Shown: piece by piece, positions 60,314 to 64,000 of the stretch
Layout of the letters: each line of letters opens with the position of its first letter
Numbering within the stretch: position 1 is the stretch's first letter
Assembly (NCBI GenBank): GCA_025936825.1
Contig: JAICSO010000012.1
Coordinates: forward strand, 62,001-126,000
From: Terriglobales bacterium
GTDB taxonomy: Bacteria > Acidobacteriota > Terriglobia > Terriglobales > Acidobacteriaceae
Length of the DNA stretch: 64,000 bases
Direction of reading: 5' to 3'
Program-made: the position numbers and the translations under genes
Notes under the pieces: model-generated
What the model was told of the DNA's origin: nothing
Databases searched by the model: none
Seen by the model: only the letters and a program-made list of their open reading frames with translations

Positions 60314-62170
60314 ATGCGCACACGACAAACCTTCGTCTCCATCACTTTTGCCCTCAGTTTCCTGGCACTATGCTCAACCGGCTCTGCACAAGCCGCATCG
60401 CCATGTCCGCTGAGCACCACCAATCCGTCCGTAACTGTTTGTACGCCTACGCCGAATGCGCTGGTGCAGAGCGCAGTCAACGTCGTTGCCGGTACGACCG
60501 ATACAAACACCGTCACAGCAGTGCAGATCTATCTCGATAACAAGCTGTACACGACGGTTCATGCGAACTCCATTAACACGTTCGTGACTGTTCCTATTGG
60601 GTACCACCTGATCACCGTGCAGGGGTGGGACTCGACAGGGGCAACATTCAAGACCAACGTTCCGGTGGCCATGCAGCCGCCATGTGCATTGAACCAGGCA
60701 AACCAGAGCATGACGATCTGTTCACTGGTGCCAGGATCAGTCGTGAGCCAGCCATTTCATGTCGTCGCGGCTGCGAACGACACCAACCCTGTGAAGTCAA
60801 TGACGCTGTTCATTGACGGGGTGGGTAAAGGCGGAATTTCCAATTCTGCGATTCTCGACATGTATGTGAGTAATCTAACCGTCGGTTCTCATTCGATTGC
60901 CGTGCAGGCTCAGGACAGCACCGGAGTGCTGTTCAAGCAGCGCTTCGACATCAAAGTGACCGCTGCCTCGCAAGGGCTAGCGAATCTGAAGCACATCATT
61001 TTCTTCGCGCAGGAGAACCGCGGATTCGACGACTACTTCGGCATGCTGGGGCAGTACAAGGCCTCTCTCGGATTGGCAAATGATGTCGATGGACTGAACC
61101 TCAATGCCGCCATTCCCAATACACAAGGGCAGCTTGTTCATCCGTTTCATTACCAAACCGTCTGCACCGAGAATCTCAGTCCCTCGTGGAACGAAAGCCA
61201 CGCGGATGTGGATGGTGGCCTGATGGATGGCTTTATGAGGAGTTCGACTTCGGTGCCCTCTACGATTGATCCCACCGGCACCCGCGCCATGGGCTACTAC
61301 ACTCAGGCGGACTTGCCTTACTACTACGAGTTGGCGGCGCGGTTTGCCACCAGTGATCGATGGTTCTCGCCGGTTTTGACCAACACAATTCCCAACCGGT
61401 TTTATCTGTTTACGGCGACGTCATGGGGCAATGCGTTTCCGGTAAATCCGCCGTCGGGTGGATTCACGCAGCCGACGATCTTCGACCACCTGGATCAGGC
61501 AGGGGTGAGCTGGCGTTACTACTACCAGGATGGGCCTTCGTCTGCGCTGATCCAGCAGTTCTCGACTTATCGGCGCGACGCGGCCAAGGTGGTGCCGATC
61601 AGCAACTGGGCGACAGACCTTCAGAATCCTTCAACGTTGCCGTCGGTGATCTTTATCGAGCGCGCGGGAGTTTCCGGGCTGGATGAGCATCCGGGCGCCA
61701 ATATTCAAAAGGGAGCGGCGGACGCGGCGAACATCATCAACACCTTCATCAACAGTCCGTCGTGGCCGACATCGGCGTTCATCCTCACTTATGACGAGGG
61801 CGGTGGCTTGTACGAGCATGTCCTCCCCGGACGCGAGATCAAGCCGGACAATTTAGCCCCGATACTGCGATCAACTGACAAGCCGGGCGATTTCAACCAG
61901 ACGGGATTCCGCGTACCGCTGGTGGTCGTCTCGCCATGGGTGAAACCGAGTTTCGTCTCGCATACGACGAGAGATTACACGTCGATCCTGCGTCTGATCG
62001 AAGATACGTTCAATGTCGCGCCGCTGACGCTTCGCGACAAGAACGCGGACAACATGATGGAATTCTTCGATTTCTCAGCAGGGCCTCGTTTGCTGACGCC
62101 TCCACCGCTTCCTGCGCAGCCGACGAACGGGACCTGCAATAACAATCTAGAGAAGGCGCCTGGGTTCTAA
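60314..62170 (+). CDS. Exported Ig-like/phosphoesterase (phospholipase C-type) protein
   Basis: 618 residues. Signal peptide (FALSFLALCSTGSAQA), two Ig-like repeats of about 90 residues (VQSAVNVVAGTTDTNTVTAVQIYLD; VSQPFHVVAAANDTNPVKSMTLFID), then a phosphoesterase/alkaline-phosphatase-fold domain. HIIFFAQENRGFDDYFGML, FMRSSTS, NTIPNRFYLFTATSWG, HPGANIQKGAA, ILTYDEGGGLYEHV and VPLVVVSPWVKPSFVSHTTRDYTSILRLIE are the usual blocks of the PF04185 family, which includes phospholipases C and acid phosphatases. The Ig-like part may bind surfaces. It stands alone between a terminator and the RiPP region. Confidence 0.87.
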   Translation: MRTRQTFVSITFALSFLALCSTGSAQAASPCPLSTTNPSVTVCTPTPNALVQSAVNVVAGTTDTNTVTAVQIYLDNKLYTTVHANSINTFVTVPIGYHLITVQGWDSTGATFKTNVPVAMQPPCALNQANQSMTICSLVPGSVVSQPFHVVAAANDTNPVKSMTLFIDGVGKGGISNSAILDMYVSNLTVGSHSIAVQAQDSTGVLFKQRFDIKVTAASQGLANLKHIIFFAQENRGFDDYFGMLGQYKASLGLANDVDGLNLNAAIPNTQGQLVHPFHYQTVCTENLSPSWNESHADVDGGLMDGFMRSSTSVPSTIDPTGTRAMGYYTQADLPYYYELAARFATSDRWFSPVLTNTIPNRFYLFTATSWGNAFPVNPPSGGFTQPTIFDHLDQAGVSWRYYYQDGPSSALIQQFSTYRRDAAKVVPISNWATDLQNPSTLPSVIFIERAGVSGLDEHPGANIQKGAADAANIINTFINSPSWPTSAFILTYDEGGGLYEHVLPGREIKPDNLAPILRSTDKPGDFNQTGFRVPLVVVSPWVKPSFVSHTTRDYTSILRLIEDTFNVAPLTLRDKNADNMMEFFDFSAGPRLLTPPPLPAQPTNGTCNNNLEKAPGF

Positions 62171-62390: not shown

Positions 62391-62687
62391 ATGTTGCGTT
62401 ATGTCCGATCGAGTTCCGTTGTCTCGCGGGTGATTGCTGAAGAAACCCTGATCGTGCCGGTCCGGCGCGGCGTAGGCGACCTCGCTTCTATCTACAGCCT
62501 TAATCCTGCCGCGAGTTCCATCTGGAATGCCATCTCAGAGCCTCGTACCCAAAATGAAATCATTGAATTGCTGCAGCAGGAATTCGATGCGCCAACAAAA
62601 GCGGTGGTCTCCGACGTGGACGCATTTCTGTCAGAGATGAGTGCGGCTGGCCTGGTTGAAACGACCGAGGTCGAGGTCGCTGCATGA
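62391..62687 (+). CDS. PqqD-like peptide chaperone
   Basis: About 98 residues from the ATG. VIAEETLIVPVRRGVGDLASIYSLNPAASSIWNAISEPRTQNEIIELLQQEFDA matches the RiPP recognition element (PqqD) family, with the beta-strand pair and three helices; LNPAASSIWNAI is the best part. PqqD proteins bind precursor leader peptides and pass them to radical SAM enzymes. It overlaps the radical SAM gene by four bases. The longer ORF-track start (GTG, 9 codons) is not needed. Confidence 0.87.
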   Translation: MLRYVRSSSVVSRVIAEETLIVPVRRGVGDLASIYSLNPAASSIWNAISEPRTQNEIIELLQQEFDAPTKAVVSDVDAFLSEMSAAGLVETTEVEVAA

Positions 62688-63946
62688 CGCTGACGAAGTC
62701 ATCGTACGGCGAGTTTAGCCTCGATCTGCACCAGCGCGTAGGAGAGAAACGTATCCCGATAGAGGTTTCTCTCGAAGTGACGCGACGCTGCCCGCTCGAG
62801 TGCCAGCACTGCTACAACAACCTGCCCATGAGTGATCTTGGCGCGCGTAATCGCGAGTTGAGCAAGCAAGAGTATTTCGCATTGCTGGATGAACTCGCGG
62901 ATATGGGCGTGTTGTGGGTGCTTTTCACGGGCGGCGAGATCTTCGCACGCAAAGATTTCCTTGAGATATACACCCATGCCAAGAGCAAAGGATTTCTGAT
63001 TACGCTGTTTACGAACGGCATCCTGATCAACGAGAAGATTGCCGATTATCTGCGCGAATACCCGCCGTTTGGAATCGAGATCACCCTCTACGGTCGAACC
63101 AAAGAAACCTACGAGACCCTCACCGCCATGCCCGGCAGCTACGACCGTTGCATGCGCGGCATACGACTGCTGTTGGATCGTGGGCTGCCGCTGAAACTGA
63201 AGACTGTAGGTACGAGCATTAACAAACACGAAGTTCGCGAGATGAGAAGATTCGCCGAGGAGGAACTCGGCGTGGAATTCAAGTTTGATGCTCTTCTCAA
63301 TCCCCGTATTGACTGTTCGCGTGCTCCGCTGGGTATCAGGCTTTCGCCGGATGAGGTGGTTTCTCTGGATCTGCAGTGGCAGAAACTGGCGGATGCCCAC
63401 CGACAATCCTTGGATCGAGAATTGGCCTCTCCCAATTACGGCAGCGATGCCGTTTACGGCTGTGGAGGCGGTATAAAAAGCTTCGCCATCGATCCGTATG
63501 GAATGATGAGTATCTGCGTACTCTCTCATCGTGACACCTATGACATTCGCCAGGGCAGTGTTCGCGCCGGGTGGGAGAAATTCTTATTCGAGGTGCGTGA
63601 GAAGAAGCGTACTCGACCTTCGAAATGCATAACCTGTCGGCTTCATTCGGTCTGCAGTATGTGCCCGGCGAACGGTGAACTCGAAAACGGCGATCCGGAG
63701 TCCCCGGTGGAATTCCTATGCGAAGTAGCGCATTTGCGGGCGGCGGCTTTGGGATTCACCGTGCCCGAACACGGGGAGTGTGAATTGTGTAGCGCTGCCG
63801 GGCGTGTCCTTCTGCGGGAGCGTGCCGATCGAGTTTTGGCCGGCAGCGATCTTCCCGCCTGGAATCGGAATTCGACCTTGCTGCCAATATTGAGTAATTC
63901 GGCGGGCATTTCCGCGGGCTGTGGGGGATGCGCGGCGAGTGCGTAG
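62684..63946 (+). CDS. Radical SAM/SPASM peptide maturase
   Basis: 420 residues. The [4Fe-4S]-SAM motif is RRCPLECQHCYNN (Cys36, 40, 43), then VLFTGGEIFARKDFLEIY and EITLYGRTKETYETLTAMPG. The SPASM region has YGCGGGIKSFAIDPYGMMSICVLS, KCITCRLHSVCSMCPANGE and FLCEVAHLRA, giving ligands for two more clusters. A tail of about 55 residues follows with ECELCSAAG and the end ISAGCGGCAASA, not usual for the family. Coupled to the pqqD gene by overlap. It probably modifies a RiPP precursor encoded near here or beyond the edge. Confidence 0.92.
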   Translation: MTLTKSSYGEFSLDLHQRVGEKRIPIEVSLEVTRRCPLECQHCYNNLPMSDLGARNRELSKQEYFALLDELADMGVLWVLFTGGEIFARKDFLEIYTHAKSKGFLITLFTNGILINEKIADYLREYPPFGIEITLYGRTKETYETLTAMPGSYDRCMRGIRLLLDRGLPLKLKTVGTSINKHEVREMRRFAEEELGVEFKFDALLNPRIDCSRAPLGIRLSPDEVVSLDLQWQKLADAHRQSLDRELASPNYGSDAVYGCGGGIKSFAIDPYGMMSICVLSHRDTYDIRQGSVRAGWEKFLFEVREKKRTRPSKCITCRLHSVCSMCPANGELENGDPESPVEFLCEVAHLRAAALGFTVPEHGECELCSAAGRVLLRERADRVLAGSDLPAWNRNSTLLPILSNSAGISAGCGGCAASA

Positions 63947-63963
63947 ATGTCGAGGGGGCAATC

Positions 63964-64000
63964 ATGAGTGACAACTCGGAGCAGCGGCTCAAGAAAAAGT
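63964..64000 (+). CDS. Start of a gene cut by the window edge
   Basis: ATG after GAGGGGGCAATC, reading MSDNSEQRLKKK to the edge. It follows the radical SAM gene by 17 bases and is probably in the same operon. A precursor, kinase-like or transport component is possible. Nothing can be said about the family. Confidence 0.5.
   Translation, partial: MSDNSEQRLKKK

Follow-up and report, generated by a model that had tools for sequence, protein, structure and literature searches.

An operon at the edge of the window

Near the right edge of the window, the whole stretch of 64,000 nucleotides that was analysed, a gene for a PqqD-like protein is followed by one for a radical SAM/SPASM maturase. The question that this locus raises is which peptide the pair acts on and what becomes of it. 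A sequence-only reading had taken it for the beginning of a probable RiPP locus, with another gene after the maturase, no clear precursor and the remaining genes beyond the window. The source of the window is a 6.54-Mb genome in which the contig continues past the right edge; it was read on as locus L002, where window position = L002 position + 61000. Reading the contig rightward gave the gene order PqqD, maturase, precursor, kinase and S24/S26::C25 fusion, with the following features:

62391..62687, + strand: PqqD-family RiPP recognition protein, 98 aa (PF05402), kept upstream of the maturase in relatives
62684..63946, + strand: radical SAM/SPASM peptide maturase, 420 aa (PF04055), fold nearest SkfB (6efn) and PqqE (6c8v)
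62789..62812, + strand: radical SAM CxxxCxxC motif, maturase C36, C40 and C43, invariant in 14 orthologues
63461..63721, + strand: SPASM auxiliary cluster region of the maturase, C260 to C346, seven Cys, all invariant in 14 orthologues
63920..63931, + strand: Cys-rich C-terminal tail of the maturase, C413 and C416, both invariant in 14 Acidobacteriales maturases
63952..63958, + strand: GAGGGGG, a ribosome-binding-site-like run in the sequence ahead of the precursor
63964..64137 (in the window 63964..64000; L002 2964-3137), + strand: precursor peptide gene, 57 aa, MSDNSEQRLKKKYEQPKITVISLRPEEAVLGHCKNSGMAGPVGTNCTAVGSCRTPGS
64158-65078 (L002 3158-4078), wholly beyond the window: HprK/PEPCK-fold kinase-like protein, 306 aa
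65071-68883 (L002 4071-7883), wholly beyond the window: S24/S26 peptidase::membrane segment::C25 peptidase, 1270 aa

The reported overlap of a PqqD-like protein and a SPASM maturase was borne out: the maturase ATG overlaps the PqqD stop by 4 bases, and the two proteins match PF05402 (E=5e-15; 55.9 bits, cut-off 23.4) and PF04055 (E=1e-20), respectively. The gene noticed after the maturase also exists and starts at 63964 on the + strand, but it is itself the 57-aa precursor that seemed to be missing. It starts 37 bases before the window edge, with 12 codons inside the window, and because the edge cuts the gene no precursor was visible to the earlier reader. A search of short ORFs for a leader-like peptide, suggested at that time, brings it up, with a leader motif YxxPx[I/L]. 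Unrelated downstream genes had been named as the outcome that would speak against a RiPP locus; extension to the right brought up genes of peptide modification and processing instead. As anticipated, the remaining genes, for the kinase and the fusion protein, lie past the right edge. The conserved precursor directly after the maturase, followed by the kinase and a leader-peptidase-like protein, agrees with the proposed start of a RiPP locus.

The 1270-aa fusion gene overlaps the 306-aa kinase gene (L002 4071 vs 4078) and is followed by a GH78 rhamnosidase-like gene (L002 7937-10312), which was absent from the set of module genes found in relatives. Just upstream of the operon lies a gene for a phospholipase-C-like phosphoesterase with two Ig-like Big_7 stretches (window 60314-62170). 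Such a gene also precedes the operon in L025, there in two copies, and in L041, and is thus a neighbour common to close relatives only.

The conservation survey covered Acidobacteriota genomes (phylum sample n=396). Loci retrieved with the maturase (L024-L040) show the order PqqD-rSAM-precursor-HprK-S26, as do loci of other families, and because this five-gene order is kept in many loci across Acidobacteriota, the grouping is more than chance. In the GC-rich loci L077, L078 and L081 genes were placed by tblastn and HMM, as greedy ORF calling chose antisense ORFs. With a PqqD-type recognition element adjoining a modifying enzyme, and a short precursor ORF whose leader is conserved and whose core varies (59 homologues), the biosynthetic assignment as a RiPP operon is strong.

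As the preferred explanation of the operon, to which we give a probability of about 0.6, we propose the following pathway. The stand-alone PqqD protein would bind the 57-aa precursor via its leader motif, and the radical SAM/SPASM enzyme would modify the Cys-containing core, most likely introducing one or two Cys thioether cross-links. The HprK-like kinase would then phosphorylate the invariant C-terminal Ser of the precursor, and the cytosolic S24/S26 Ser/His peptidase would cut the leader after [VIT]-L-[G/A/S], leaving a product of ~26 residues that starts with xCK and ends with -GS. The modified peptide would work together with the exported C25 (gingipain/PorU-like) peptidase of the same operon. 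Genes, conservation, catalytic residues, folds, linkage and co-occurrence were seen directly, and from these we infer the reactions, the step order and the role of C25, the C25 step being the least certain. The pathway offers testable predictions: terminal Ser phosphorylation, a cut after V-L-G and a C25-dependent step. In open PMC papers no description of C25, HPr kinase, PqqD and radical SAM combined was found, and we rate the operon as a new form of radical-SAM RiPP biosynthesis, with predicted chemistry, phosphorylation and C25 role.

A precursor family with conserved leader and variable core

The precursor is present in one copy in its own genome. Homologues at E 2.5e-11 or better were found in 9 of 99 other genomes (relatives), and profile matches at 0.001 or better in 46 of the 396 phylum genomes, own genome counted. 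The phylum-wide set holds 59 distinct sequences, 58 complete and one ended by a contig end. Neither the precursor, searched against NCBIfam and Pfam models, nor 12 precursors spanning the phylum, searched against NCBIfam, gave a match. This precursor family, which has no NCBIfam or Pfam model, occurs in numerous families of a soil phylum that has been little studied. Weak precursor matches (E 0.009-0.1) in the relatives L004 and L016-L022 had no adjoining module genes and were treated as chance.

In the 24 Acidobacteriales precursors, Y13, P16, L23, P25-G31, C33, K34, C46, C52, G56 and S57 are invariant and the core between invariant positions varies; phylum-wide, the leader Y..P and CK hardly vary, and Lys follows the leader Cys in almost all precursors. 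The leader motif is followed by [VIT]-L-small before xCK, which forms a signal-peptidase-like cut site. Residue -3 before the proposed cut is V in 55, I in 2 and T in 2 sequences (59/59), and residue -1 is G in 44, A in 10, S in 3, T in 1 and Q in 1 (G/A/S/T in 58/59). Two core Cys are present in 56 of the 58 complete precursors. The last residue is Ser in 57 and Thr in one (58/58), mostly as -GS, and is the sole hydroxyl residue conserved throughout the core. In the 22-codon leader block about half of the codon differences (10263/21519) are synonymous; judged by this share, the leader codon pattern would be as expected of a selected coding sequence.

The leader resembles that of lasso peptides, in which PqqD-like B1 proteins recognise the residues Y(-17), P(-14) and L(-12) (PMC10368454). 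Here the leader Tyr stands 19 residues ahead of the proposed cut.

A precursor-like ORF near 4055-4213 of L090 (G440:C96) has no maturase, kinase or S26 match adjoining it. The same genome carries two further precursors with modules on other contigs (L089 and L097), which may serve the L090 ORF in trans.

The radical SAM/SPASM maturase

The maturase has the full SPASM set (C260-x12-G-x4-C278, C315, C318, C324, C327 and C346). Its predicted model (pLDDT 71, moderate) has as nearest folds the sactisynthase SkfB, which is the best match, and PqqE. The combination of a SPASM enzyme with two conserved Cys suggests thioethers in the precursor core. In this the operon resembles sactipeptide and ranthipeptide systems, with their SPASM radical SAM enzymes and core Cys, the Cys thioether here being a prediction. 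It differs from them in that PqqD is a protein of its own and in having a kinase, an S24/S26 leader peptidase and a C25 protein, and among the matches listed its maturase scores under all NCBIfam equivalog cut-offs. Weak matches to the PqqD protein, maturase and kinase came from the NCBIfam cassettes GeoRSP, SynChlorMet and HprK-related systems A/B, but all scores are far under the curated cut-offs and these cassettes have no model for the precursor found here.

PqqD and a SPASM enzyme also occur together in PQQ and mycofactocin systems, and PqqE is among the best sequence and fold matches of the maturase. The operon could on this ground be a redox-cofactor pathway of that kind, in which the peptide is consumed to a small molecule, but we consider this highly improbable. 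The maturase reaches 87.5 bits against the PqqE equivalog (cut-off 381) and 87.1 bits against that of mycofactocin (cut-off 265), and the core has no conserved aromatic residue or Glu-Tyr/Val-Tyr pair, with conserved Cys and a terminal Ser instead. Because of these scores and the core composition PQQ/mycofactocin identity was rejected. The precursor is also a different one, and there are no cofactor-pathway enzymes among the operon genes.

After the SPASM domain the maturase ends in a tail of the form LPILNN...GCGxCG with two invariant Cys (window 63902-63943, and orthologues in L024-L046). This Acidobacteriales tail is similar to a Cys-rich peptide on a tether or to a metal site. In L032 (9286-11292), ~2 kb with two ORFs of 326 and 264 aa are inserted between maturase and precursor. 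The genome-contig scan built on the patterns of one maturase finds close relatives only. A Bacteroidales locus (L042) was rejected as a maturase relative, since only part of the radical SAM core matched.

A probable kinase of the HprK/PEPCK fold

Profiles barely detect the kinase, which matches HprK-related kinase B at E=3e-4. For an orthologue a structural model was predicted with pLDDT 89; its matches include PEPCK and HPr kinases at E 1e-6 to 1e-4, and TM-scores of up to about 0.47 place it at superfamily level only. The P-loop, LSDDR and GTPWHG motifs are invariant in the alignment. An HprK/PEPCK fold with Walker A is thus present, and the 306-aa protein is a probable peptide kinase.

It has been shown that HPr kinase homologues of lasso peptide clusters phosphorylate the C-terminal Ser (PMC8498205). 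Since the precursor ends in Ser or Thr in 58 of 58 complete sequences, as expected for a paeninodin-type C-terminal-Ser kinase, we propose that the kinase would act on the terminal Ser. Phosphorylated lasso peptides of the paeninodin type further share with our operon the stand-alone PqqD-like protein, the YxxPxL leader motif, the HprK-like kinase and the invariant C-terminal Ser (PMC8498205, PMC10368454). However, the operon has a radical SAM/SPASM enzyme, an S24/S26 peptidase and two conserved core Cys. When the operon genes were compared to Pfam and NCBIfam, neither a lasso B2 protease nor the asparagine-synthetase-like C protein was among them, and lasso peptide identity was rejected. Two RiPP modifications, radical SAM chemistry and HprK-type C-terminal phosphorylation, would be joined here, a pairing not described in the literature searched (open PMC papers).

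A proposed leader peptidase and a C25 peptidase in one protein

The N-terminal domain of the fusion protein matches PF00717 (26.7 bits, cut-off 23.3), and the Ser, His and Asp of ER-type signal peptidases, including the catalytic Ser and general base of an S24/S26 peptidase, are found in 38 of 38 homologues. There is no membrane segment N-terminal to this domain, and the protein has one hydrophobic segment, at 144-162, with a positive N-side. Because of this single segment the S24/S26 domain should be cytosolic and the remainder, with C25, exported. The residues at -3 and -1 of the precursor fit the known specificity of signal peptidases; as a soluble S24/S26 domain is also at hand, we propose the latter as leader peptidase.

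The C-terminal domain matches C25 (PF01364, E=9e-82), and all 25 homologues compared have the catalytic His and Cys. It resembles gingipains and PorU in this C25 domain and in a signal-peptide-like segment, and its relatives have exported adhesin-like repeats. What sets it apart from gingipains and PorU is its fusion to a cytosolic S24/S26 peptidase and its place in a RiPP operon, and with 251.7 bits it stays under the cut-off of 420 of the model for PorU, the type IX secretion sortase. In Acidobacteriales the C25 domain, joined via the membrane segment to the leader peptidase, would most likely perform the last extracytoplasmic step on the peptide, either trimming or surface attachment. Gingipains include Lys- and Arg-specific proteases. 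As a Lys follows the leader Cys, a cleavage by C25 after CK is conceivable, possibly as an alternative or second cut.

In f1, the window's own family, S26 is fused to C25 in most loci; in other f1 genomes several DUF11 repeats belong to the exported part, and the fusion protein is as long as 2100-3000 aa. Outside f1, S26 and C25 are often separate genes and C25 has its own signal-peptide-like N-terminus. In family f27 (L084 6822-8222) a Poly_export/SLBB (Wza-like) polysaccharide export protein takes the place of C25 as fusion partner of the S24/S26 domain, which indicates that the partner can change. The L084 fusion gene adjoins genes for a response regulator and a T2SSE/HD protein. In L085, near 7091 in operon orientation, the S26 match lies inside a longer frame.

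The precursor module is linked to C25

We then compared the distribution of C25 with that of the precursor. Among 57 precursors there are 26 pairs of a precursor and a C25 gene within 15 kb of each other (25/26 on the same strand), in 24 genomes. C25 lies downstream in most families and directly upstream of pqqD in f36 and f26. In one genome (G191) precursor and C25 lie at opposite ends of a 1.0-Mb contig and would be neighbours if the contig is circular. The phylum background is C25 in 137 of 396 genomes. In f1, C25 is present in 9 of 10 precursor-positive and in 2 of 50 nominally negative genomes (Fisher P=3.6e-8), counts that do not represent independent events, as the sampled relatives share ancestry. 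In one f1 exception (G002) a contig begins with the kinase and the S26::C25 fusion; this genome is therefore module-positive, with the precursor lost to assembly. The other (G057) has only a partial C25 profile match in a 519-aa frame. Gene fusion, the placement of C25 on either side of the module and shared presence and absence agree in direction and support a dedicated association of C25. As an association, function aside, the link is well supported: a common operon, a gene fusion and a matching pattern of presence and absence tie a RiPP to a gingipain-like protease.

Co-occurrence and fusion would be equally expected if the RiPP regulated, inhibited or were bound by the C25 surface protease and were not its substrate, the operon then encoding a protease together with a modified-peptide controller. 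As C25 has kept its two catalytic residues, there would be good reason for a dedicated controller. We nevertheless regard this as unlikely: the core is hypervariable, which one would not usually see in a peptide that tightly inhibits a conserved active site, and binding of the peptide by C25 is conjecture.

It is quite unlikely that PqqD, rSAM, kinase and S26 make a secreted bioactive peptide, antimicrobial or signal, and that C25 is an ordinary surface protease with no tie to it beyond co-regulation. The variable core would fit such a peptide, as would the f43 locus L082 with its pair of NHLP bacteriocin exporters and the loci without linked C25, namely L025 (G004), with a full operon and stand-alone S26, and those of f27, where no C25 was found nearby. 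On the other hand, f1 genomes without the module are almost without C25, and S26 is joined to C25 in most f1 loci.

A wider form of the preferred pathway, in which C25 partners the peptide, is possible but doubtful. It would define a RiPP class of the phylum Acidobacteriota whose peptide, modified by radical SAM chemistry and phosphorylated at its C-terminus, is reserved for a giant C25 protease of the surface, either as cofactor-like controller or as a group that the protease attaches to the cell surface, with leader peptidase and surface protease in one membrane-spanning protein. The loci without linked C25, the Wza-like fusion partner in L084 and the second C25 protein of the window's own genome (below) speak against the proposed pathway, and a further point against it is export. 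When a constant exporter was sought among the flanking ORFs, ABC transporters appeared in few loci and at varying places and none was a constant operon member, so that the route of the peptide to the exported C25 domain is unexplained.

The exporter pair of L082 (12770-17919, operon orientation) lies ~9 kb after the precursor, and its ABC proteins match TIGR03796 and TIGR03797, each over the cut-off. The window's own genome encodes a second C25 protein (L092; G000:C91, 34441-35454), a 1900-aa frame with a signal-peptide-like start and about 63% identity in the C25 part. Neither S26 nor RiPP genes were found in the 14 kb read around it, which indicates that C25 can act without the RiPP operon.
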